Source: a virus. Taken from it: 23,646 nt of DNA. How positions within the stretch are numbered: the first letter of the stretch is position 1; each line of letters opens with the position of its first letter. Under the pieces are notes generated by a model. That model searched no databases and was not told where the DNA came from. It worked only from the letters and a program-made list of their open reading frames with translations. The DNA lies in the IMG/VR virus record IMGVR_UViG_3300021247_000263, positions 1 through 23,646 of that record. One strand, written 5' to 3'. Below are positions 1 to 17,234 of this stretch, one piece after another. Made by a program: the position numbers and the translations under genes.

Positions 1-957
1 AATTCTGCTGCAATTTTCCGTGGCGACGTCGCTGGCGTTCTCGAGCAAGCTAAAGACTGGGAGTCTGGCTTGATCGGCACGTCTGTGATGCCCGTCCTCA
101 ATGTTCCTGTCCGCGCTGGTCAGTATCCTTCCTTTGTTCTCAAAGAAGGCCAACTGCTCAAGAGCGAGGTCAAGAACCGCGCGCCTTACAGCACCTACGC
201 TCGCGGCACCCGCGCCTTCAACCAAGACACTTACACCGCGCTCGAGTACGGTTATGAAGAAGCTGTCGATGACACGGTGACGCTCGACGTCGCTCGTTTC
301 TTCGATGCCGAAGTCATCGCCGCCAAGCTCGCCAAGCGCAAGTTGCTCCTCGCTCACGAACTCCGCGTCTCTAGCGCGATCTTCAACAGCTCCAACTTCA
401 CCTCGACGAACTCCGCCACGGCTTATACCACGGCCAACATCGCCACCTTCGACGCCGCTGCCGACGTTCAAGACGCGCTCGACCGTATGCTCGCCAAGGG
501 CGAATCCACGAGCAACGCCAAGGTTGTGATTCCGTTCCCAGTCTGGACGCGCCTCCGCGCTTCCACGAAATTCCAGAACCGCCTCCGTGGCACCGGTCTT
601 TCGAGCGACACCATCCTCAATGCCTCGACGCAAGCCGCTGCCGAAGTGTTCGGCGTTGCCGAAGTGTTGATCGGTCGCGCTGCCTATGACTCAGCTCCCG
701 AAGGCGTGGCGTTCAGCTCCAGCAACGTCTGGGCGAACACCTACATCTGGGTCGGTAACGTCACCGAAGCCTCTGCCGGCTTCTTTGGTGGTGGCGCTGG
801 CTTCACGCTCAACTGGTCTGAGTACGGCCCCGCCATCGGCGTCAGCACCTACCGCGACGAGTCGATCAAATCGAACATCGTCCGCGCTTCGCACTACACC
901 GCCGAGAAGGTTGTGAACACGAACGCCGGTCAGCTTATCGCAACCCAATACAGTTGA
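1..957 (+). CDS. Major capsid protein, 5' end missing
   Basis: Frame 1 is open from the first base to the TGA at 955-957, so 318 residues are visible and the true start lies upstream of the window. An in-frame TTG at 70 is not a credible start because coding continues before it. The protein forms the icosahedral head shell (HK97-type fold by inference). Visible support: a central stretch rich in acidic and aromatic residues (YTALEYGYEEAVDD), a long basic/alanine helix with AAKLAKRKLLLAHELRVSSAIF, a domain with VVIPFPVWTRLRAS, and a Gly-rich late segment near FFGGGAGFTLNWSEYGP before the final strands. This pattern is typical of a capsid family often paired with GpA-type terminases. It is followed by a strong terminator, as expected for a highly expressed structural gene. 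No single catalytic motif anchors the call, so it rests on overall pattern and on position before the head-tail and tail genes. Confidence 0.82.
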   Translation, partial: NSAAIFRGDVAGVLEQAKDWESGLIGTSVMPVLNVPVRAGQYPSFVLKEGQLLKSEVKNRAPYSTYARGTRAFNQDTYTALEYGYEEAVDDTVTLDVARFFDAEVIAAKLAKRKLLLAHELRVSSAIFNSSNFTSTNSATAYTTANIATFDAAADVQDALDRMLAKGESTSNAKVVIPFPVWTRLRASTKFQNRLRGTGLSSDTILNASTQAAAEVFGVAEVLIGRAAYDSAPEGVAFSSSNVWANTYIWVGNVTEASAGFFGGGAGFTLNWSEYGPAIGVSTYRDESIKSNIVRASHYTAEKVVNTNAGQLIATQYS

Positions 958-1010: not shown

Positions 1011-1694
1011 ATGCACCCTTGGCACGGAATCATATTTACAGAACGGAAACAGAAGCACGCTGAAATGCGGCGCTGGATTGCTGAAAATCCAGAGCAACGG
1101 CTAAGGCATGGACAAACGCGGGAGGATGGGAAGCGGTTCTGCGGGTATTCCGTAGGCTATGCAAATGGAGAATACTGGGCGGATCCGAAAGTCTTTGAGA
1201 CGCGCCTTGAAGCAGCGCGCAGGAAAATGCGCGAATGGCGCAAAGACGAAAACTACAAAAAAGCTCATACCGCATATTGTCGCTCAAGATATGCAAATCA
1301 GCAGGATGTCAGAGAAAAAACTAAGAATCGGCAGCGAGCGTGGTCTGAGAAGCATCCCGAGCGAATCAACCAGCTCGCATCAAAGCGTCGCGCGCTTAAG
1401 CGATCTCTGCATCACCCGCAGCACGATGAGAGCGTTGAGCTACGTCTACACGAGGAGGCAAAGCGGCTGACCGCAGAGACTGGAATCAAGCATCACATTG
1501 ACCACATTATCCCAATCAAGCACGGTGGATTTCATCATCACGATAATTTGCAGGTTCTACCGGCGAACGTGAACCTCGCTAAGAGTTCGACGCCATTCTG
1601 GATTTCCTCGACATATAAGGACTTTCGCGCGGTGCCGCAATGGTTGTGGCCGGATCCGCTCGTGGATTTATATCTAGCGATGCGGACGGTTTAA
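1011..1694 (+). CDS. HNH endonuclease, homing type
   Basis: 227-residue protein. The HNH nuclease fold sits in the C-terminal third: HIDHIIPIKHGG, then DNLQVLPANVNLAKSS, giving the DH pair, the central Asn and the final Asn/Lys helix of the beta-beta-alpha-metal motif. The N-terminal 120 residues are Arg/Lys/Trp-rich and probably bind DNA. Such enzymes cut DNA and are often free-standing mobile genes in phages. The ATG at 1011 touches the T-tract of the preceding terminator and has no Shine-Dalgarno sequence; a later in-frame ATG at 1062-1064 is also poorly supported, so the start is uncertain. Expression would need read-through or an internal promoter. The gene stands between the capsid gene and two glycosyltransferase-like genes and looks like an accessory insertion. 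The family call is firm; whether it homes or helps packaging is unknown. Confidence 0.88.
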   Translation: MHPWHGIIFTERKQKHAEMRRWIAENPEQRLRHGQTREDGKRFCGYSVGYANGEYWADPKVFETRLEAARRKMREWRKDENYKKAHTAYCRSRYANQQDVREKTKNRQRAWSEKHPERINQLASKRRALKRSLHHPQHDESVELRLHEEAKRLTAETGIKHHIDHIIPIKHGGFHHHDNLQVLPANVNLAKSSTPFWISSTYKDFRAVPQWLWPDPLVDLYLAMRTV

Positions 1695-1741
1695 TTTGAC
1701 GGTTCGCGCGCCTTCTATTGACCGAAGCAAAACACACGACT

Positions 1742-3127
1742 ATGACAATCTCCCTCTGCGTAATTTGTGGCAACGAGGCGCACCACATCGAGGCAATGCT
1801 TAACTCGTTCGTCGGACTGATCGACGAACTCTCACTTGTCCGCGCCATCGGCTCAAAGGAACCGGACGACACCGAGCGAATTGCGCGCGGATGGTGCATC
1901 GACAACAGCGTCAATTTCGTTTTCAGCGAGTATCACAACGGGGTCACGGCGCAGACTTGGAAGCACGTCGATTCCTTCGCCAAGGCACGCAATCAGGCTT
2001 TCGCGTATGCGACAGGCGATTGGCTAGTCTGGGCGGATTGCGACGACGTCTTGGCCGAAGCCGACGACCTTAAAAGCAAGCTCGCCGAACTCTCCGAGAA
2101 CGTGCTGATGGTGCGCTGTCCGTACGACGTGCGCGGCACCGGAAAGAAACTGCAACGCGAGCGGTTAATTCGTCGCAGCGCGTTTCAATCTGGGCGAGTC
2201 TGGCATCACGACGTGCATGAAAACCTGCTTCTCTTGCCTAACGACCGTCACGTTGAGTGGACGGCGCCGGTCTGGAAGCATGAGCCGGTCGCGATCAAAC
2301 AAGACAACCGCAAGCGCAACCTTGCGATCTTGGGGCGCAGCGTAGGCGAGGCGGCGACTCAATACTTTTACATCCACCAAGAGCACTATTGTTCCGGCAA
2401 CAAACAAGCCGCAGAACAGTTTGGCCGCATCGCCCTATCTTTTCCGAACCTCGACGACTCTTTCCGCTACGAGGTTCAGCTTAACCTTGCGCGCATCTCA
2501 GCGAGTCGGCGCGAGTCGATGCAGTTCGCAATGGGCGCGCACGGCGTCTTTCCGTGGTGCCGCGAAGCCATCGCCTCGATCATCATGCTGGCGTTTGAAA
2601 AGAACGACGGCAAGCGCGCGGCATGGTGGGCGTCTCGGATGCTGACCTTGCCTGAACCGGCGCAGAAAGACCGTCCGTGGACGCACGAGGCGAAGTGGTA
2701 CGGCTGGGCGGGACATGATCTCGCCGCGCGTGCATATCGCTTGGCTGGCATGACAGCGGACGCAAACGCGCTTCAACTGGTTTATCACAAGCACACCGAG
2801 CCGACCATTCGCATCACGCAAAAGACGCTCGGTAACTCGACGCGCTCGGTTTCTTTCCGCGACGCTTGGCTCTCGACTGCGGCGCGACCTGAGATCGTCG
2901 AGCACTACTTTCAAATAAAGGCCGACGACGCCGAGACGCTGGCAATGGCGAAGCAGTTCCTGCATCACGTCGGCGAGCCTACTGAAACGCCTCGCGCCGT
3001 GATTCGCGTGAACGTCGAGGACGGCATGGTGCCGCCGAACAGTTGGGATGAGCGCGTGCTTACGTGCGGAGAAACCGTCATCGACGCGGAGAACATCGAG
3101 CGAATCCTTGGAGGTAAAAAGCCATGA
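1742..3127 (+). CDS. Family 2 glycosyltransferase with C-terminal helical domain
   Basis: 461 residues from ATG 1742. An upstream in-frame TTG at 1718 would add eight residues, but TISLCVICGNE after the ATG is the normal first strand of a GT-A fold. Residues 1-210 carry the catalytic domain: CVICGNEAHHIEAML, then FAKARNQAFAYATGDWLVWADCDDVL with the metal/nucleotide-sugar DxD at Asp99-Cys-Asp101-Asp102, then RCPYDVRG and a WHHDVHE segment in the acceptor region. The rest (about 210-420) is helical and TPR-like. It should transfer a sugar from a nucleotide donor in the cytoplasm; the acceptor (virion protein, DNA base or host glycan) cannot be told. There is no ribosome site at its start, only an A/C-rich stretch. 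It overlaps the next, related gene by 4 bases, so the pair is probably co-translated. Confidence 0.85.
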   Translation: MTISLCVICGNEAHHIEAMLNSFVGLIDELSLVRAIGSKEPDDTERIARGWCIDNSVNFVFSEYHNGVTAQTWKHVDSFAKARNQAFAYATGDWLVWADCDDVLAEADDLKSKLAELSENVLMVRCPYDVRGTGKKLQRERLIRRSAFQSGRVWHHDVHENLLLLPNDRHVEWTAPVWKHEPVAIKQDNRKRNLAILGRSVGEAATQYFYIHQEHYCSGNKQAAEQFGRIALSFPNLDDSFRYEVQLNLARISASRRESMQFAMGAHGVFPWCREAIASIIMLAFEKNDGKRAAWWASRMLTLPEPAQKDRPWTHEAKWYGWAGHDLAARAYRLAGMTADANALQLVYHKHTEPTIRITQKTLGNSTRSVSFRDAWLSTAARPEIVEHYFQIKADDAETLAMAKQFLHHVGEPTETPRAVIRVNVEDGMVPPNSWDERVLTCGETVIDAENIERILGGKKP

Positions 3128-3768
3128 TTCCAGAACCCGCAATCGTGGTCTGCACCAAGAACGCGCGTTGCCTCGACGTGATGAGAGCGTCGATCAAAGC
3201 CTACGTTCCGCACGGCATCCGCACCTACGTTTCGCACGGACTTGGCCCGACCTTCGGCGAGGCTTACAACGAGGCTGCGCGCATCGCGTTTAAGGAGCAC
3301 GACCAACTTGTGATCTGCAACGACGACATTGTCTTCACGCCAACGACGTGGGCGAAGCTCATGGGCGACGTGAAATTACTGCGCGAGCATTATCCATACC
3401 TCGGCTGGGTGGCGACGCGCTCGGACTACGCGCGCGGAGAACAGAACATCCGCATCGGACGCGGGCAAATCGACTTCCTGCGGTTCACGTCGGAGCGAAA
3501 CATCGTTCAAGCAAGCGTCATCGCTCCGATCTGTGCGTGGATTCACCGCGACGCATGGGTGGATTTTCCTCCGCTCAACTGGTTCAGCGACGACGTGCAA
3601 TGCCTCGACATGAAGCGACCGCATTTTATCTCGCGCGCCTACGTTCACCACGTCGGAAGTCAGACCTGCGGCAACGACGCGCAAAAGTGCATGGACGACG
3701 CCGAGCCTTGGCTGCGCGAGAATCGGCCCGAGTTGCACGCTCGGTGGTATTTAACGAAAGGCGCATAA
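3124..3768 (+). CDS. Glycosyltransferase-like protein (GT-A fold)
   Basis: 214 residues. The start is well fixed: ATGA overlap with the preceding gene and a clear GGAGGT at 3110-3115, eight bases before the ATG. Residues 6-15 (AIVVCTKNAR) form a first Rossmann-like strand, YNEAARIA lies in the following helix, and LVICNDDIVF puts a DxD-like Asn66-Asp67-Asp68 in the nucleotide-sugar site. Further on, WFSDDVQCLDM and AYVHHVGSQTCG resemble the acceptor-side acidic residues and the late His motif of GT2 enzymes. It is shorter than full GT2 enzymes and has no membrane segment. With its upstream partner it probably acts in sequential or alternative glycosylation of the same target; that is inference. 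Confidence 0.72.
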   Translation: MIPEPAIVVCTKNARCLDVMRASIKAYVPHGIRTYVSHGLGPTFGEAYNEAARIAFKEHDQLVICNDDIVFTPTTWAKLMGDVKLLREHYPYLGWVATRSDYARGEQNIRIGRGQIDFLRFTSERNIVQASVIAPICAWIHRDAWVDFPPLNWFSDDVQCLDMKRPHFISRAYVHHVGSQTCGNDAQKCMDDAEPWLRENRPELHARWYLTKGA

Positions 3769-4091: not shown

Positions 4092-4891
4092 TTCAGATCG
4101 AGACGAGTTTTCATCGCTTGGAATACCAACTGGCGCGACTCGCTCTTGCCGCAAAGGTCGATCTTGGCTTAGTGATTAAAGAGGAAGCTAAGTATGCGAT
4201 TCAGACCATCGTGAAATTCACGCCGCCAAAGAATAAGCAGCAAGGCGTCAATGCGGTGCGTCGAGATATGGCGAACGTGGCGCAGCCTCTCGTTTACCAA
4301 GACTTGAAAGCAAAGGCGAGCAAGGGCGGGTTTTATGGCTCGATGGCAAAATATGTTCGCAATCGTGAAGTCGAAAAACTCCGCGCGCTCTTTCGCAATC
4401 CAAAGCTCAATCATTACTATGGCGGCAAGTTGCTCGCCGACATTGGCGCATTAAAAGACGAGCACCGATTACGCCAAAACAATCGCGGTCGAGTGACTGG
4501 AAAACCAAACGCTTTTGCTTTTGGTGCTGATTACAAAAAATACCTCAAGCAAGTTGAAGACCGTGTCGGCTGGACGGTGTCAGGATGGAACTCATCGGCA
4601 AAAGTTGCCGGTGCGCGCTATAAGAAATTTTCCGATAGACTGAAACCACAAGGCGGAGCCAACGGACGCTTGTTCGGTTACGTCAGTTCAAACTTTGGCG
4701 ATAAACCTTTTATCAAAGCGACTGCGACCAACGTGAAGATTCCGAATTATCAGCGCATGGTCGATGGTGCGATCAATTCACGTGAGCGCACCACCGTTAA
4801 AAAGGTCAATGCCGTTCTCGCTAACCGTGCCGTCAATCTTGGATTCACCAAGGTGAACGGAGCAATGCCACTTCAAACCGCCGCCGCATGA
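4088..4891 (+). CDS. HK97 gp10-like tail completion protein, long form
   Basis: 267 residues, ATGA overlap with the previous gene. The N-terminus (FHRLEYQLARLALAAKVDLGLVIKEEAKYAIQTIVKFTPPKN contains the relevant stretch) is a helix followed by a Thr-Pro-Pro turn, as in gp10/Z-like proteins that cap the tail before head joining. Later features include VGWTVSGWNSSAKVAG and KPFIKATATNVKIPNYQRMV. It is about twice as long as a usual gp10 protein; the extra Lys/Arg-rich middle (about residues 60-150) is unexplained. Base use is more AT-rich than its neighbours. Position between connector and tail terminator supports the role. Confidence 0.6.
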   Translation: MIQIETSFHRLEYQLARLALAAKVDLGLVIKEEAKYAIQTIVKFTPPKNKQQGVNAVRRDMANVAQPLVYQDLKAKASKGGFYGSMAKYVRNREVEKLRALFRNPKLNHYYGGKLLADIGALKDEHRLRQNNRGRVTGKPNAFAFGADYKKYLKQVEDRVGWTVSGWNSSAKVAGARYKKFSDRLKPQGGANGRLFGYVSSNFGDKPFIKATATNVKIPNYQRMVDGAINSRERTTVKKVNAVLANRAVNLGFTKVNGAMPLQTAAA

Positions 4892-5319
4892 GCACACGCA
4901 CAAACATCCGAAACGCCACCGCAACCGCCCTCACGTCCGCTCTGGTCGTGCCCACGGCGAACATCCTGCGCGGGCGCAACAACACGATTGCCAGCGTCAG
5001 CTTTCCGTCGGCTGCGGTCTATGCCGTCACCGAGCAAATTGAAGTTCGCACGCTCGGCCCGAGCAATCGCACGCAGTACCGCCAGCTTCAACTCGTCGTC
5101 GATTACTTCACAGCTGAGAGCGGCACTTACCTGATTGATGATCTTTTCGACACTGGCTCCGCTGCCGTCGAGGCCGCAGTCTTGGCCGACGTTACGCTCG
5201 GCGGTACTTGCCGCGACCTTCATTTGACAAATGTCGAATATGTGATCGAACCCGACGAGGAACGCCGCTGGGGCACCGCACGTCACACTTTCAACTGCAT
5301 CTATTTAACCAACGACTAA
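4888..5319 (+). CDS. Putative tail terminator protein (gpU-like)
   Basis: 143 residues starting with the ATG of an ATGA overlap at 4888. It has an N-terminal helix (NIRNATATALTSALVV), then strands around FPSAAVYAVTEQIEV, RTQYRQLQLVVDYF and a late LTNVEYVIEPDEERRWGTARHTFNCIYL. The mixed alpha/beta layout with repeated strands fits tail terminators, which stop tube growth and join the tail to the head. The order gp10-like, this gene, tube protein, frameshifted chaperone and tape measure is the lambda Z-U-V-G/GT-H order. No diagnostic motif is present. Confidence 0.65.
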   Translation: MSTRTNIRNATATALTSALVVPTANILRGRNNTIASVSFPSAAVYAVTEQIEVRTLGPSNRTQYRQLQLVVDYFTAESGTYLIDDLFDTGSAAVEAAVLADVTLGGTCRDLHLTNVEYVIEPDEERRWGTARHTFNCIYLTND

Positions 5320-5320
5320 C

Positions 5321-5707
5321 ATGGCAAATCACCTTGGCCGCGAAGGCCTAATCAAAGTCTCGTCCACCACCATCGGCGAACTCCGCAACTACTCGCTCTC
5401 GCACTCCTCTGACACCGTAGAGGACAGCGTGATCGGCGACACCTACCGCACGCGTCAAGGCTCGATGAAAACTTGGAGCGCGTCTGGCGATCTCTACTGG
5501 GACGAAGCCGATGCCGGCCAACTCCTGATCACCATCGGCTCGACCGTGACGCTGAACCTTTATCCAGAGGGCGCGTCGTCCTCCGACGTTTATTATTCCG
5601 GCTCGGCTATCGTCACGAAGTTCGACGTGTCGGCTTCGTTCGATGGTCTTGTCGAAGGCTCGATTGCTTTTGAAGGCAACGGCGCGCTCTCGACCCTGAC
5701 CGTTTAA
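5321..5707 (+). CDS. Major tail tube protein
   Basis: 128 residues, ATG one base after the previous TAA (TAAC-ATG) with no Shine-Dalgarno. The protein is almost all beta: EGLIKVSSTTIGELRNYSL, then TYRTRQGSMKTWSASGDLYW, DAGQLLITIGSTVTLNLYPEG and FDVSASFDGLVEGSIAFEGNG. The TWSASGDLYWDEAD and late FEGNG turns are typical of tail tube proteins of the TP901-1/gpV type that stack as hexamer rings. It sits just upstream of the tail chaperone and tape measure genes. Confidence 0.82.
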   Translation: MANHLGREGLIKVSSTTIGELRNYSLSHSSDTVEDSVIGDTYRTRQGSMKTWSASGDLYWDEADAGQLLITIGSTVTLNLYPEGASSSDVYYSGSAIVTKFDVSASFDGLVEGSIAFEGNGALSTLTV

Positions 5708-5736: not shown

Positions 5737-6060
5737 ATGGAAGCCATTGATCTCGTCCGCGAACACTTCAACAACCTCGGCACTAAACGAATCGAAGTTC
5801 CCGAATGGAAACTCGTGATCTTCTCGACTCCAATGACCTTGGCCGAGAAGAACCGAGTTTACAAAAAGTCTCAGAACAACGATATGGATTTGCTCGTGGA
5901 CATTTTGATTATGAAGGCCACGGACGAGAGCGGAAAGAAGCTGTTCACCATCGAGCACAAGCCGACTCTCTTGAACAAGGCCGACAGCAACATCGTCGCT
6001 CGCGTCGCTAATGAGATTCTTTCGGATAGTTCGCCGAAGCTCGACGACTTAAAAAACTAA
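5737..6060 (+). CDS. Tail assembly chaperone, short form (gpG-like)
   Basis: 107 residues in the zero frame, ending at the TAA (6058-6060) directly after the slippery heptamer. The sequence has two strands near KRIEVPEWKLVIFSTPMT and then a helical, Lys-rich half. In lambda-like phages this product and its frameshifted long form coat the tape measure protein and recruit tube subunits, and are absent from the finished virion. Position between the tube and tape measure genes plus the frameshift signal make the assignment secure, though the sequence itself is not family-diagnostic. Translation starts after the A/C-rich leader. Confidence 0.88.
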   Translation: MEAIDLVREHFNNLGTKRIEVPEWKLVIFSTPMTLAEKNRVYKKSQNNDMDLLVDILIMKATDESGKKLFTIEHKPTLLNKADSNIVARVANEILSDSSPKLDDLKN

Positions 6061-6221
6061 TTGACGGCGATGAAGGTGCCGACCTCCTCGCCGTCTATGT
6101 AATCGCTGAACGTCTCGGCAAATTCGCTCACGAAGTCCTCGCAATGCCAGTCGAAGAAATGAACGGCTGGCTTGCTTACATTAACCACCAAAATCGACTG
6201 AGAAAACATCATGGCAGCTGA
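5737..6221 (+). CDS. Tail assembly chaperone, -1 frameshift fusion (gpGT-like)
   Basis: A -1 slip at 6051-6057 moves the ribosome past the TAA at 6058 into an open frame running from CTA 6057 to TGA 6219-6221. The join gives 107 plus 54 = 161 residues. The added part reads LIDGDEGADLLAVYVIAERL and later MPVEEMNGWLAYINHQ; an EEMNGWLAY-like motif is characteristic of the T domain of phage tail chaperones. The extension overlaps the tape measure start by 11 bases. Known role of the family: the T domain binds tube subunits while G binds the tape measure, and a fixed G to GT ratio is needed. The extension has no start of its own and is too short for routine gene calling. Confidence 0.88.
6051..6095 (+). 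promoter_or_regulatory. -1 programmed ribosomal frameshift signal
   Basis: Heptamer A AAA AAC at 6051-6057 is in the correct phase (codons TTA AAA AAC). After a 5-base spacer comes a perfect 8-bp stem: GACGGCGA (6063-6070) pairs with TCGCCGTC (6088-6095). Inside the loop AGGT can pair with ACCT around GCCG, extending the fold. Sequence, phase, spacing and location all match known tail-chaperone frameshift sites. Confidence 0.93.
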
Positions 6222-7508: not shown

Positions 7509-8090
7509 ATGGCAATTTCCTATCCACTCACGCCGCCCGCTGCGCTTGAAGCCTCGCGCCTTTCAATTACAGGCGTCAGCGCAGTTTCGCGCAACGTCTC
7601 GCCGTTCACGATGCAGGTGCAACAGTACAACTGGCAAGGCCAAGGCTGGCTCGGCACCGTGGATTGCCCACCAATGACGCGCACCGCAGCCGAGCAAGTC
7701 ATCGCGTTCCTGCTCATGGCCCAGCGCGGCACGTTCTATTTTCAAGACTTCGCCAACCCGACGCCACGCGGCAACGTGACTGGCACGCTCACCGTGTCCT
7801 CGGCTACGGCCAACGGAACTACGCTCGGCATCAGCGGCGCGACCGGCTCCTTTGCTGCGGGCGATTGGCTGCAAATCTCGACTTCGCTTTACAAGGTCGT
7901 GCAAGTAAACTCGTCGTCGTCGGTGGACGTGTTTCCAGTCCTGCGCTCCTCCTACGCTGGCGGCACCGCGATCACTTACAGCAACGCCAAGGGCGTGTTC
8001 CGCCTCGCCGAGCCTTCGACGCAATGGAGCATCGACACGGCCAAGTTTTACGGCGTCTCGTTCAACGTGATGGAGGACGTCGCGCAATGA
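7509..8090 (+). CDS. Minor tail protein (tail tip, gpM/distal-tail-like)
   Basis: 193 residues, ATG five bases after the tape measure stop. Opening MAISYPLTPPAALEASRLS and WQGQGWLGTVDCPPMTR, followed by FLLMAQRGTFYFQDF, resemble small tail-tip proteins that sit between the tape measure and the baseplate hub. The middle (residues 90-160) is a small beta domain with TGSFAAGDWLQI and VDVFPVLRSSYAGG, a frequent insertion in such proteins. Position matches lambda M and the distal tail gene of gene transfer agents. The exact family is not certain. Confidence 0.65.
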   Translation: MAISYPLTPPAALEASRLSITGVSAVSRNVSPFTMQVQQYNWQGQGWLGTVDCPPMTRTAAEQVIAFLLMAQRGTFYFQDFANPTPRGNVTGTLTVSSATANGTTLGISGATGSFAAGDWLQISTSLYKVVQVNSSSSVDVFPVLRSSYAGGTAITYSNAKGVFRLAEPSTQWSIDTAKFYGVSFNVMEDVAQ

Positions 8091-9146: not shown

Positions 9147-12100
9147 ATGCCGCAAGCAGCAATAGCACTCGCCCTAAGTTACGTTGGAATTCACACCGTA
9201 TCTGCATGGGTAATAACTACGATTCAATATATCGCAGTCACAGCGGCATCAATGGCCGCGTCGAAATTACTTGCGCCAAAGCCTCCAAGTTTTTCGGATT
9301 CATCTCTTTCGCAACGCTCGCAAATGGTGCGTTCGCCAATCGCTGCGCGCACGCTTGTTTATGGTCGCTGTCGCGCATCTGGCACCGTGGTTTATATGTC
9401 CACGACTGGAAGCAAAAACGAGTATTTGCACATCGTGATTGCTCTTGCCGGCCACGAGATCGAGGAAATCCAAGAAGTGTATTTCAATGACGATCTCGTT
9501 CCGCTCGTCAGCAACACGCCGACCGGATTCTACAACGGCGTCGCACGCGTAAACAAACATCTTGGCGGAAGCGGTCAGACGGCGGACACCGATTTGATTA
9601 ACGACACGGCCAGCCTCACGGACGGCAAGTGGACGAGCGATCACAAGCTCTCTGGCATCGCTTACCTTTATGTCCGCCTAACTTGGGACACCGAGAAATT
9701 TCCGAGCGGTATTCCGAACATCTCGGCAGTTATCAAAGGCAAAAAGGTTTACGACCCGCGCTCGACCTCGACCACTTATTCAGCAAACGCCGCGCTTTGC
9801 TTGCGCGATTACCTGACCGACTCCGCGCTCGGCATGGGATTAACCTCTGCCGAAGTGGACGACACGGCGATCACGGCGGCCGCAAACATCTGCGACGAGC
9901 AAGTGCAAGTTCTCCCGCTCTCGCCGACGACCTACGAAAACCGTTACGAGTGCAACGGCGTCATTGCCACGAGCGCCTCTCCCGACGAGAACATCGGCAA
10001 GCTCCTCTCGGCGATGGGAGGACTCATCGCGTACTCAGGCGGCAAGGTTGTTCCTTACGCCGGAGGCTATCGCATCCCGACAGTGACGCTCACCGAAAAG
10101 CACTTCGTCGGCCCGCTGAACATCCAGACCCGCACGAGCGCGCGCGATCGCGTGAACTCGGTCAAAGGCGTTTACGTCAGCGAGTCGAACAACTGGCAAG
10201 TGTCAGACTTCCCGACGATCTCGTCGGCGACCTACGTTTCCAACGACAACAACACGCGCTACTATCGCGACGTTGTGCTTCCATTCACGACGTCCTCATC
10301 CTGCGCTCAACGCTTGGCCGTTATCGAGCTGCGCCGCGCGCGCGAGGAAATCACATTCACCGCCCGCTTCCGTCTAGAGGCGATGCAGGTTCGCGCGGGC
10401 GACACGGTCATGATCACCAACGCAAAACTCGGTTGGTCGTCGAAAGTTTTCGAGGTGATGGAGTGGCATTTTGCGAGCGACGGCAATCCGCCGCAGCTTT
10501 ACATCGACATGACGTTGCGCGAAACGGCGTCCTCGGTTTATTCGTGGACAGTTTCCGACGAGGTTTATGTCGCCGACTCTCCGAACACGACATTGCCCGA
10601 CCCATTTACTCTCGGCGCACCGTCTGGCCTTACGCTTACGGCAGACGGCACGACACAATTTATTCAAGCCGATGGAACCGCGATTCCACGCATCAAAGTA
10701 AAGTGGACACCGCCAGCCGAGGAGTTCATTCAATCCGGTGGCGCAGTCGTCATCGAATACAAGCCGAGCACGAGCACGACTTACTTGACGTGGAGTCGCG
10801 TCGAAGGTGACCAGTCCGAAGATTACATCAGCTCTGATGTGAAGATCGGCACGAATTACAACGTGCGAATCTTCGGCGAATCGTATTTCAAGATCAGCAC
10901 GAGCTACGTCACCAACTCGATCACGGTCGCTCCCGACACGACTCCGCCCGCGACTCCGACCGGACTCACGGCCATTGCTGGCACCGGACAAATTATCTCG
11001 CTGGACTGGGACGACAACACCGAGGCCGACTTCGGCGAATACGGTGTTTGGCGCAACACGAGCAACAGTTCTGGCGGCGCAACCGAGATCGCTCAAACTC
11101 GCGCGAGTCGATTCGTGGACGTGAATCTTACGCTCGGCACGACTTATTATTACTGGATTTCTGCCTACGACCGCAGCGAGAATCAAAGCGCAAAGAGCAG
11201 CGGAGCAAGCGCGACTGCGGTGGCCGTTACTGCTGGCGAGGTTGATAACACGCCGCCATCCGACCCAAGTGCGCCAACAGTAAACACGACTGGAACTTAT
11301 TTGAGCGGAGACGGCACGGTGTTCTCGCGCATCGTGGTAAATGTGCCAGCGTTCTCGACGCGGTGCGTTGTGATGAACGTGCTCTATCGCAAGAGCGGAA
11401 CAGCTGGCTGGATTGTCGCCGACCAACGCAGCAGCGGAGGCGGCACATCTTCCATCGACGACTTATCTCCAAACGTATCTTATGAGATCGCCGTGCAAGC
11501 GTTCAGCACGTTCGGCATCGCAAGCAACATCGTCAGCGGTGGCACACAGACCGCGCCTAACAATTCGACGGCACCTGCTACTCCGAGCGGGTCAGGTCTT
11601 ACGAATGTCGGCGTGACACCAAAGCTGATCGAGAGCACTCGTGAGTATTACTTTGGCTCACGCGCCTACTGGAACGCAAACACTGAGGCAGATTTTGATC
11701 ATTACGAAATTAAAGCCACCGCAACAAATAGTAGCAGTGCAACAGACTATAATTGGTTTGGTGAATCTGGCGTTAATGGTTTGGTTTTAACCAAGGCGAC
11801 GACGATGTGTTTCTACAACACGTTTGCGACTAGCGGATTTACTTTTTTGCGCGCGGTTAATCGCAGTGGCGTCGCGTCAGCTTGGGTTTATCTTGGATTC
11901 TGCGCCAACAATGCAGCGTATGGAGCAGGCGACATCTCATCACAAGATCGAGACGATGTGACCGTGAGCGGAATTAAAACTGGCGCAATCTCAGCATCGA
12001 GCGTGCGCCAAGTCGCCGCAATATTTCAAGAGTCCGCCGTTGTCTTGCTTTCTGGAGGCTCACCGACTGAGACATTCTCGGTGGACATTTCCAACCGTGG

Positions 12101-12287
12101 ATTCTCGACAAAACCTGATATCGGCGTTGCTGGTTGTGCGAGCGATGCAAATTTGATTGCCGCTTACGATTTTGACCACTCATCAAATAGTTCCTCGACT
12201 GCTTACGTTCGCGCGGCAACGTTGGACGGAAGCAACATTGGTGCGGGATACTACCGATTCAGCATCGACTTCACTGAATACAATTAA
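9147..12287 (+). CDS. Tip attachment protein J-like central tail fibre with FN3 domains
   Basis: 1046 residues. The hydrophobic N-terminus (about 1-45) and SQRSQMVRSPIAARTLVYGR then HIVIALAGHEIEEIQEVYFN are hallmarks of lambda-J-type host specificity proteins. The hub domains run to about residue 480. Three fibronectin type III-like domains follow: about 490-590, 590-690 (after PDTTPPATPTGLTAIAG, with WDDNTEADFGEYGVWR) and 695-805; a fourth degenerate one may cover 820-920. The C-terminal about 110 residues, ending RFSIDFTEYN, are a probable receptor-contact tip. It determines host binding and sits at the tail end. Confidence 0.9.
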   Translation: MPQAAIALALSYVGIHTVSAWVITTIQYIAVTAASMAASKLLAPKPPSFSDSSLSQRSQMVRSPIAARTLVYGRCRASGTVVYMSTTGSKNEYLHIVIALAGHEIEEIQEVYFNDDLVPLVSNTPTGFYNGVARVNKHLGGSGQTADTDLINDTASLTDGKWTSDHKLSGIAYLYVRLTWDTEKFPSGIPNISAVIKGKKVYDPRSTSTTYSANAALCLRDYLTDSALGMGLTSAEVDDTAITAAANICDEQVQVLPLSPTTYENRYECNGVIATSASPDENIGKLLSAMGGLIAYSGGKVVPYAGGYRIPTVTLTEKHFVGPLNIQTRTSARDRVNSVKGVYVSESNNWQVSDFPTISSATYVSNDNNTRYYRDVVLPFTTSSSCAQRLAVIELRRAREEITFTARFRLEAMQVRAGDTVMITNAKLGWSSKVFEVMEWHFASDGNPPQLYIDMTLRETASSVYSWTVSDEVYVADSPNTTLPDPFTLGAPSGLTLTADGTTQFIQADGTAIPRIKVKWTPPAEEFIQSGGAVVIEYKPSTSTTYLTWSRVEGDQSEDYISSDVKIGTNYNVRIFGESYFKISTSYVTNSITVAPDTTPPATPTGLTAIAGTGQIISLDWDDNTEADFGEYGVWRNTSNSSGGATEIAQTRASRFVDVNLTLGTTYYYWISAYDRSENQSAKSSGASATAVAVTAGEVDNTPPSDPSAPTVNTTGTYLSGDGTVFSRIVVNVPAFSTRCVVMNVLYRKSGTAGWIVADQRSSGGGTSSIDDLSPNVSYEIAVQAFSTFGIASNIVSGGTQTAPNNSTAPATPSGSGLTNVGVTPKLIESTREYYFGSRAYWNANTEADFDHYEIKATATNSSSATDYNWFGESGVNGLVLTKATTMCFYNTFATSGFTFLRAVNRSGVASAWVYLGFCANNAAYGAGDISSQDRDDVTVSGIKTGAISASSVRQVAAIFQESAVVLLSGGSPTETFSVDISNRGFSTKPDIGVAGCASDANLIAAYDFDHSSNSSSTAYVRAATLDGSNIGAGYYRFSIDFTEYN

Positions 12288-15122: not shown

Positions 15123-15782
15123 ATGAATACGACAGACGTTAAAACTGAAACACAAGTCGCGGTCGCAGACACCGCTCCAAAAGCGCAGATCACTTTCGGA
15201 AATCAAGGCGTGCAACTAGCCAGCATCGACGAGGCATTTCGATTCGCCAAGGCAGTCGTCGCATCAGGCTTTGCTCCGCGCGGCATGGAGAAGCCCGAGA
15301 GCGTGATGATCGCAATCCAGCTCGGTATGGAACTAGGGCTGACGCCAATGGCCGCGCTACAAAATACCGCAGTCATCAACGGTCGGCCAGCGATCTACGG
15401 CGACGCCGCTCTCGCTCTGGTTCGCGCCAGCGGCCAGCTTGTGAGCTACGCCGAACAAGAGGTCGGCGAAGCCGGCAAAGACTCGCACGGCTACAAAATC
15501 ACGGTGCAACGCAAAGGTTACGACGCAGCCTCGGAGACATTCACGACTGCCGACGCCAAGGCCGCAAAACTTTGGGGCAAGAATGGCCCTTGGTCAGATT
15601 ATCCAAAGCGGATGCTCAAGTTCCGCGCTCGCGGCTTTATCCTGCGCGATCAGTTCGGAGATGTTCTCAAAGGTCTCCGCACCGTCGAGGAAGCCCGCGA
15701 CATTGCTCCAGAGATCAACGTCACGCCACTCGCCGAGAAAGTCGCCGGTGGATTGAGCGAAGCGATTGGAGGTGCCGCGTGA
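15123..15782 (+). CDS. recT: RecT-family single-strand annealing protein
   Basis: 219 residues. The conserved core is intact: IAIQLGMELGLTPMAALQNT then VINGRPAIYGDAALALVRAS (about 63-103), then WSDYPKRMLKFRARGFILRD (158-176) and FGDVLKGL. These are the signature blocks of the RecT family, which coats single-stranded ends and anneals complementary strands in phage recombination. A disordered Thr/Val/Ala N-terminus (1-25) and Ala/Gly tail flank it; it is at the short end for the family. The PD-(D/E)XK exonuclease at 16407 is its likely partner. Leader: hairpin plus A/C-rich repeat; ATG follows GATAAC with no Shine-Dalgarno. Confidence 0.9.
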   Translation: MNTTDVKTETQVAVADTAPKAQITFGNQGVQLASIDEAFRFAKAVVASGFAPRGMEKPESVMIAIQLGMELGLTPMAALQNTAVINGRPAIYGDAALALVRASGQLVSYAEQEVGEAGKDSHGYKITVQRKGYDAASETFTTADAKAAKLWGKNGPWSDYPKRMLKFRARGFILRDQFGDVLKGLRTVEEARDIAPEINVTPLAEKVAGGLSEAIGGAA

Positions 15783-15997
15783 ATGTAATGGGTCAAGCCA
15801 TCCGTCGCTCCGACGTCTATGATCGGAGCCGACTCTACAAACCAGAACGACGCGTGCTCGAGCGAATGAAGTCGTGGCATCTAAACGAAAAAGGCGAGCG
15901 CGTAGATTCTCAAGGCCGATACGTCGGTCACGGCGACATCGACCGTGGCATGAAGTATTTTTTCAGCAAACGCATCAACAAACAAAAAAAAGAATAA
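15779..15997 (+). CDS. Small basic protein between RecT and the exonuclease
   Basis: 72 residues from GTG 15779 (GTGA overlap, GGAGGT at 15768-15773 five bases upstream); ATG 15788 is in frame but too far from that site. It is Arg/Lys/Asp-rich with many charged turns (YDRSRLYKPERRVLERMKSW, GRYVGHGDIDRGMKYFFSKR) and no recognised fold. Conserved-looking position in the recombination operon; function unknown. Confidence 0.6.
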   Translation: MNVMGQAIRRSDVYDRSRLYKPERRVLERMKSWHLNEKGERVDSQGRYVGHGDIDRGMKYFFSKRINKQKKE

Positions 15998-15998
15998 C

Positions 15999-16295
15999 AT
16001 GAACGACAACGATCTAAAACAAGTGGCAGTCATCAACGCAGCGACGGAACAATTCCGCAGTCTGCTCGATTTGCATTTCAAGCAAATCGCTAAGGCGGCG
16101 CAGGAATCATTTATCGAGGACGAGAATCAGACCGAGCCGAAAGCTAAGGCGACGTTCTCGGTCGAGTGGGATTCGCTCGCAGCCGCTCCGAAGATCAACG
16201 TCAAGGTCAGTTGGTCGGTTCGCTACAAGGACGAGACCGAAACCGAGATCGACCCGCTGCAATTCAAAATCAAACTGGAGGGCGACGACCTGTGA
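15999..16295 (+). CDS. Small acidic protein of unknown function
   Basis: 98 residues, ATG one base after the preceding TAA (TAAC-ATG). The first half is helical (AATEQFRSLLDLHFKQIAKAA), the second a pair of strands (KATFSVEWDSLAAAPKINVK, VSWSVRYKDETETEIDPLQF). Net acidic. No family recognised. Confidence 0.6.
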   Translation: MNDNDLKQVAVINAATEQFRSLLDLHFKQIAKAAQESFIEDENQTEPKAKATFSVEWDSLAAAPKINVKVSWSVRYKDETETEIDPLQFKIKLEGDDL

Positions 16296-16414
16296 ACCTA
16301 CTCCGCAGATTGATCGGCTGGTTTTGCGAATGGGCGTTGCTCATTCTATTTACGACTTTGCTCATCGTGATCTGGCCGTTCATCTGCGACGCGGAGGACA
16401 AAAAAGATGAATGA
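16292..16414 (+). CDS. 40-residue single-pass membrane protein
   Basis: GTG 16292 (GTGA overlap) with GGAGGG at 16277-16282 nine bases upstream. After an Arg-containing start (NLLRRLIG) there is one strong membrane segment, WALLILFTTLLIVIWPFI, and an acidic/Lys tail (DAEDKKDE). Size and topology would suit a small holin or membrane anchor, but it sits in the recombination module. Function unknown. Confidence 0.58.
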   Translation: MNLLRRLIGWFCEWALLILFTTLLIVIWPFICDAEDKKDE

Positions 16415-17234
16415 ATCAATTCAAGATTATCACGCGAACAGCGCGATCTCGCACTCGAAATTGGAATGTTACCGCCGACGGCCCGCGCTCTACTACAAAA
16501 AGTATATCGCAAAGACTCTCGCGCAACCGGACGAGTCCACGGCATTTCGACTCGGCAGCGCGGTGCATTGCGCCGTGCTCGAGGAAAAAGAGTTTGCGAC
16601 GCGCTACGTTCAAAAGCCAGACCTCGACCGACGCACGAAAGAAGGCAAGGCAGCTTACGCAGAGTTTGCAGCGCAGCATGAAGGCAAGACGTTACTCGAT
16701 GCCGACGAACTGGCGCAGGTCGTGGCGATGCGAGAGGCCGTAGCGGCGCATCCTATCGCGGGTCAACTGTTATCAAACGGAGAAGCCGAGGTGACGTGGC
16801 GCAAGGCTCAGAAAAATGCTCTAGGCGCGCTGCAATGCCGCACGGACTGGTTCAATTCAACTGGCTGCGAGATCAGCAACGGCGAGCCTTACGTTCTCGA
16901 CGTAAAAACAGTCGAGAGTCTGGACAGCGATGCGTTCCGCAATTTCGAGCGCGCTGCGTTTTCCTACGGCTATCATCGCCAAGCAGGATTTTACCTTCCG
17001 CTCATCAACGAAATCTTCGAGCGGCCAGTCTCGCGGATGTATTACGTCGCGGTCGAGAAGTGCGAACCCTTCGGCGTTGTAGTCTACAAACTCAGCGACG
17101 ACGCAATCGCACGCGGTCAGGATGAGACGATCTCCGACCTGATTCGTTTAAAGAAAAGCATCGAGGACAACCACTGGATCAATTTTGAACCAGTCATACA
17201 CGAACTCAGTTTGCCGAGTTGGTATAAACAATGA
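16407..17234 (+). CDS. PD-(D/E)XK exonuclease, RecE-like
   Basis: 275 residues, overlapping the previous gene by 8 bases with GGAGG at 16393-16397. The opening HANSAISHSKLECYRRRPAL is the usual first helix, FRLGSAVHCAVLE carries His54, AEVTW has Glu128, CRTDWF has Asp147 and YVLDVKTVESLD gives the catalytic Asp165-x-Lys167; YGYHRQAGFYL is the closing helix. This is the layout of phage exodeoxyribonuclease VIII-like nucleases, which resect DNA ends so RecT can bind the exposed strand. All metal-binding residues are in place. Shorter than E. coli RecE but normal for phage versions. Confidence 0.88.
   Translation: MNESIQDYHANSAISHSKLECYRRRPALYYKKYIAKTLAQPDESTAFRLGSAVHCAVLEEKEFATRYVQKPDLDRRTKEGKAAYAEFAAQHEGKTLLDADELAQVVAMREAVAAHPIAGQLLSNGEAEVTWRKAQKNALGALQCRTDWFNSTGCEISNGEPYVLDVKTVESLDSDAFRNFERAAFSYGYHRQAGFYLPLINEIFERPVSRMYYVAVEKCEPFGVVVYKLSDDAIARGQDETISDLIRLKKSIEDNHWINFEPVIHELSLPSWYKQ

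Follow-up and report, generated by a model that had tools for sequence, protein, structure and literature searches.

The stretch of DNA analyzed here in its full length (the window) comes to 23,646 bases and is the record of an uncultured virus, and its + strand carries a tailed-phage structural module (Table 1). Within this module, a short gene lies between the major tail protein and tape measure genes, as does the G/GT gene of phage lambda. Its 3' end holds a slippery heptamer, beyond which come a stem-loop and a -1 frame extension whose end is overlapped by the start of the tape measure gene. The length of the tape measure protein implies a short tail, and this protein also matched the tape measure of RcGTA below the threshold. 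Elsewhere in the window, the major head gene is separated from the tail genes by a region (1011-3768) in which one gene weakly matches an HNH endonuclease, another encodes a family 2 glycosyltransferase, and a third is of unknown family; these genes form an unusual insertion in the structural module. A weak RecT-like gene lies close to a DUF3799 PD-(D/E)XK nuclease gene at 15123-17234, which suggests a phage recombination pair.

Table 1. Structural genes and elements of the frameshift locus in the window, with the evidence for their assignment
Feature	Position	Strand	Evidence
Major head protein	1-957	+	
Tail terminator	4888-5319	+	
Major tail tube protein, upstream neighbor of the chaperone gene	5321-5707	+	Phage_tail_2 (4e-08), phrog_1407 (7e-18)
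Zero-frame tail assembly chaperone (G-like), 107 aa	5737-6060	+	phrog_344, phrog_16513, predicted fold, gene order
Slippery heptamer A AAA AAC, in phase	6051-6057	+	Invariant in all close relatives
Zero-frame stop TAA, codon next to heptamer	6058-6060	+	
Putative stimulatory stem-loop: 8-bp stem (6063-6070/6088-6095), inner pairing (6074-6077/6082-6085)	6063-6095	+	
-1 frame extension (T-like), 54 aa and TGA	6057-6221	+	phrog_16513 C-terminal match, dN/dS, model
Short tape measure protein, 430 aa	6211-7503	+	phrog_1538 and other tape measure profiles
Distal tail protein	7509-8090	+	
J-like tail protein	9147-12287	+	

The earlier note had described a complete -1 frameshift signal at the end of the short gene, and its coordinates proved exact to the base. 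The heptamer is in phase with the open reading frame (AAA at 6052-6054 and AAC at 6055-6057), and the zero-frame stop is indeed the very next codon. After a spacer of 5 nt, GACGGCGA pairs with TCGCCGTC in a perfect 8-bp stem, and the inner pairing of AGGT with ACCT was also confirmed. The minimum free energy of the 45 nt downstream was -20.6 kcal/mol (z = -6.0 against dinucleotide shuffles); none of 200 shuffles was as stable, and when the -1 frame was recoded synonymously, 35 of 2000 versions folded as stably. The stem-loop is the kind of stimulatory downstream RNA structure that is common, though not universal, in systems of the lambda G/GT type. The -1 frame runs without a stop from 6030 to the TGA at 6219-6221, and its translation agrees with the earlier note in giving a 54-residue extension (LIDGDEGADLLAVYVIAERLGKFAHEVLAMPVEEMNGWLAYINHQNRLRKHHGS) and a 161-residue fusion with the chaperone. 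This openness by itself is weak evidence, as the -1 frame was open over the same length in 9.5% of dinucleotide shuffles. The predicted genes of the window contain 17 in-phase heptamers, of which only the one at 6051-6057 closely precedes a stop (7 nt), all others being at least 40 nt away. From the upstream stop at 6027, no ATG, GTG, or TTG occurs in the -1 frame until 6144, which is past the half-way point of the extension.

Profiles, gene order, and the predicted fold support the identification of the zero-frame product as a tail chaperone. It matched two PHROG tail assembly chaperone families, phrog_344 (9.7e-07) and phrog_16513 (5.3e-06). The fusion matched phrog_16513 more strongly than either part alone (5.3e-14), with residues 5-152 aligned to positions 8-157 of the 160-position profile. 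This family therefore covers the zero-frame part and the extension as one protein. An AlphaFold2 model of the zero-frame product (pLDDT 74) was compared with PDB structures by Foldseek, and the closest fold to this N-terminal domain was the HK97 tail assembly chaperone 2OB9 (probability 1.00, TM 0.54), although the sequence identity was 13% and the E-value 2.5e-3. The chaperone of RcRhea was among the top viral structure matches to the same model. A sequence-profile search of the PDB returned matches of E about 0.2 at best, and in Pfam and NCBIfam neither part had a tail-chaperone or T-family match at E <= 1. Weak matches in these two databases, such as P22_AR_N at 0.16, were dismissed as chance. 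By these sequence tests, the two parts would fall outside the Pfam and NCBIfam families of lambda gpG and gpT.

The extension, which the earlier note had called T-domain-like, resembles a T domain by its position and by its match to the C-terminal part of phrog_16513, the end of a fused chaperone family. The proposed search against T-domain profiles gave this same match and no T-family match in Pfam or NCBIfam. Among the 15 extensions in the alignment, 12 matched phrog_16513 by themselves. The extension was modeled as a two-helix hairpin (pLDDT 87). In the close relatives described below, dN/dS was about 0.14 for the extension and 0.11 for the zero-frame part, and the differences in the extension fell mostly at third codon positions (8376, compared with 2898 and 2287 at the other two). 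Because dN/dS is low and third positions are the most variable, the extension, as judged from these substitution patterns, is under protein-level constraint. The -1 frame thus has no start of its own and is conserved as protein, which is what is expected of the lambda G/GT type.

The close set comprised 84 distinct sequences, namely the window and 83 IMG/VR relatives that are 64%-98% identical. A AAA AAC was invariant in 84/84, with the zero-frame stop immediately after it in every sequence and the extension in the -1 frame in all of them. The stem positions were paired in 88.5% of cells, compared with 39%-66% when the partner was slid by one to three columns. Covariation was modest, with four pairs showing two-sided changes, which is not above shuffles by that measure. 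RNAalifold likewise found little covariation, since the core of the stem scarcely varies. The same heptamer arrangement was found on a betaproteobacterial MAG contig.

The wider set comprised 207 distinct homologous stretches, from 98% down to about 26% identity; some contigs had been fetched twice with different flanks, so that totals count distinct stretches and not independent lineages. The earlier note had named homologues without the heptamer or without the -1 frame as evidence that would speak against its reading. Both were kept down to about 26% identity: the heptamer was in phase, 7 or 10 nt before the zero-frame stop, with the -1 frame open beyond it, in every stretch except that of the cyanophage S-2L, which departs in the heptamer. 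Scans beyond the close set and the isolate phages described below contributed about 120 of the distinct stretches, and each of these carried the heptamer. A deep profile tried as the seed for a collection scan was dropped because it was too diverse. In S-2L (28% identity), no heptamer lies near the stop, and an in-phase C CCA AAG occurs 52 nt upstream of it (L168:1833, MW334946.1 about 29688). The -1 frame from this site reads T-like (LASELGMTWGQMQQDMTEAELALW...), and no joined CDS is annotated.

Homologous genes were also read in nine isolate phages; in 8/9 a heptamer lies in phase at a distance of 7 or 10 nt upstream of the stop, and the ninth is S-2L. The heptamer is A AAA AAC in HTVC202P, HTVC026P, DSL-LC06, and phi3LM21, A AAA AAG in HTVC111P and HTVC112P, and G GGA AAC in RcRhea and R4C. 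The -1 extensions of these eight isolates align with that of the window, with A, L, and W invariant. The closest isolate homologues are the Pelagibacter phages HTVC111P, HTVC112P, HTVC026P, and HTVC202P (40%-45% identity), which, like the window, place the heptamer (A AAA AAC or A AAA AAG) immediately ahead of the stop and carry a T-like -1 extension. In contrast to the window, the HTVC026P group has weak downstream structure; its contigs (L250-L329) keep A AAA AAC TAA and fold weakly downstream. For the pelagiphage homologues, the mean downstream folding energy was -5 kcal/mol, compared with -23 kcal/mol in the group of the window. As judged from these sequences, the stem does not extend to the whole family. 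The chaperone of the Rhodobacter phage RcRhea (Cronusvirus) is homologous, with 27% identity in the zero-frame part. It has its heptamer 7 nt before the stop and a similar -1 extension, whereas the heptamer itself differs from that of the window and the extension has 46 residues.

These comparisons bear on three other explanations of the locus. Chance coincidence of heptamer, hairpin, and open frame without function might be entertained given the open frames in shuffled sequences and the other heptamers in the window. However, this reading is already contradicted by the comparative data and retains a negligible probability, because the heptamer is invariant in close relatives, the -1 protein is conserved, and the arrangement recurs in distant homologues with different heptamers. 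It is this conservation that places the signal beyond chance. It is also highly improbable that the extension stands alone as a small gene with a start codon of its own, unjoined to the chaperone. Such a gene is annotated in phi3LM21 as a separate hypothetical CDS, but the -1 frame of the window offers no start codon between 6027 and 6144, and phrog_16513 spans both parts as a single protein.

Transcriptional slippage, in which the polymerase would add or drop an A in the run of six A and so produce mixed mRNAs that need no ribosomal frameshift, is very unlikely, if less so than the two readings above. The site does contain such a run, and slippage of this kind is reviewed beside ribosomal frameshifting in PMC5009743. 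It is disfavored because G GGA AAC stands in place of A AAA AAC in two homologues (RcRhea and R4C), and this ribosomal heptamer lacks the A6 run. The strict phase of the heptamer and the stem at 5 nt suit the ribosome and not the polymerase. Six A is, moreover, short for polymerase slippage.

We conclude that the locus almost certainly encodes a programmed -1 ribosomal frameshift of the lambda G/GT type. The lambda strategy put forward in the earlier note is supported by gene order, profiles, fold, the conserved heptamer, and the related -1 extension, and the locus is a routine case of a mechanism that has been familiar since phage lambda. As in lambda, a -1 heptamer lies at the 3' end of the short gene, and the fusion gains a C-terminal domain. 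The lambda heptamer is G GGA AAG, whereas that of the window is A AAA AAC with the zero-frame stop directly after it; the window also differs from lambda in that its parts have no match to the Pfam or NCBIfam G or T families. Most ribosomes would terminate at the TAA and release the 107-residue chaperone. The stem-loop would pause a minority, which would slip back one base on the heptamer (from AAA AAC to AAA AAA) at low frequency and read on to the TGA to give the fusion. By analogy with the lambda G/GT mechanism reviewed in PMC5009743, which cites Xu, Hendrix and Duda 2004 for its conservation, the shared G-like part may bind the tape measure protein and the T-like extension may recruit the tail tube protein. 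On the same analogy, the proportion in which the two forms are made would be important for building the tail.

In deposited genomes, the RcRhea homologue is already a joined CDS (GenBank NC_028954). In the four Pelagibacter phages, the extension is unannotated, and in HTVC111P (L165:1906-2058) and HTVC112P (L160:1906-2052) hypothetical CDSs are annotated over it on the reverse strand, which are probably spurious. In phi3LM21, the hypothetical CDS mentioned above covers it, and in DSL-LC06 and R4C nothing is joined. The expectation that ordinary gene finding would miss the extension and that a joined CDS is needed agrees with the annotations of the pelagiphages, DSL-LC06, and R4C, from which the second chaperone is absent.

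Tentatively, the family may tune one frameshift in two ways, although we regard this as rather unlikely. The strong stem occurs in the group of the window and in Rhodobacterales and rhizobial phages, whereas many pelagiphages have a bare A AAA AAC followed immediately by the stop. If this were true, pausing in the latter may depend on the stop or the codon context in place of the stem. The family brings no new principle and provides a large comparative set for frameshift-site prediction. Its main import is for annotation: a joined CDS is due in the phage of the window and in the large number of uncultured phages with this arrangement.
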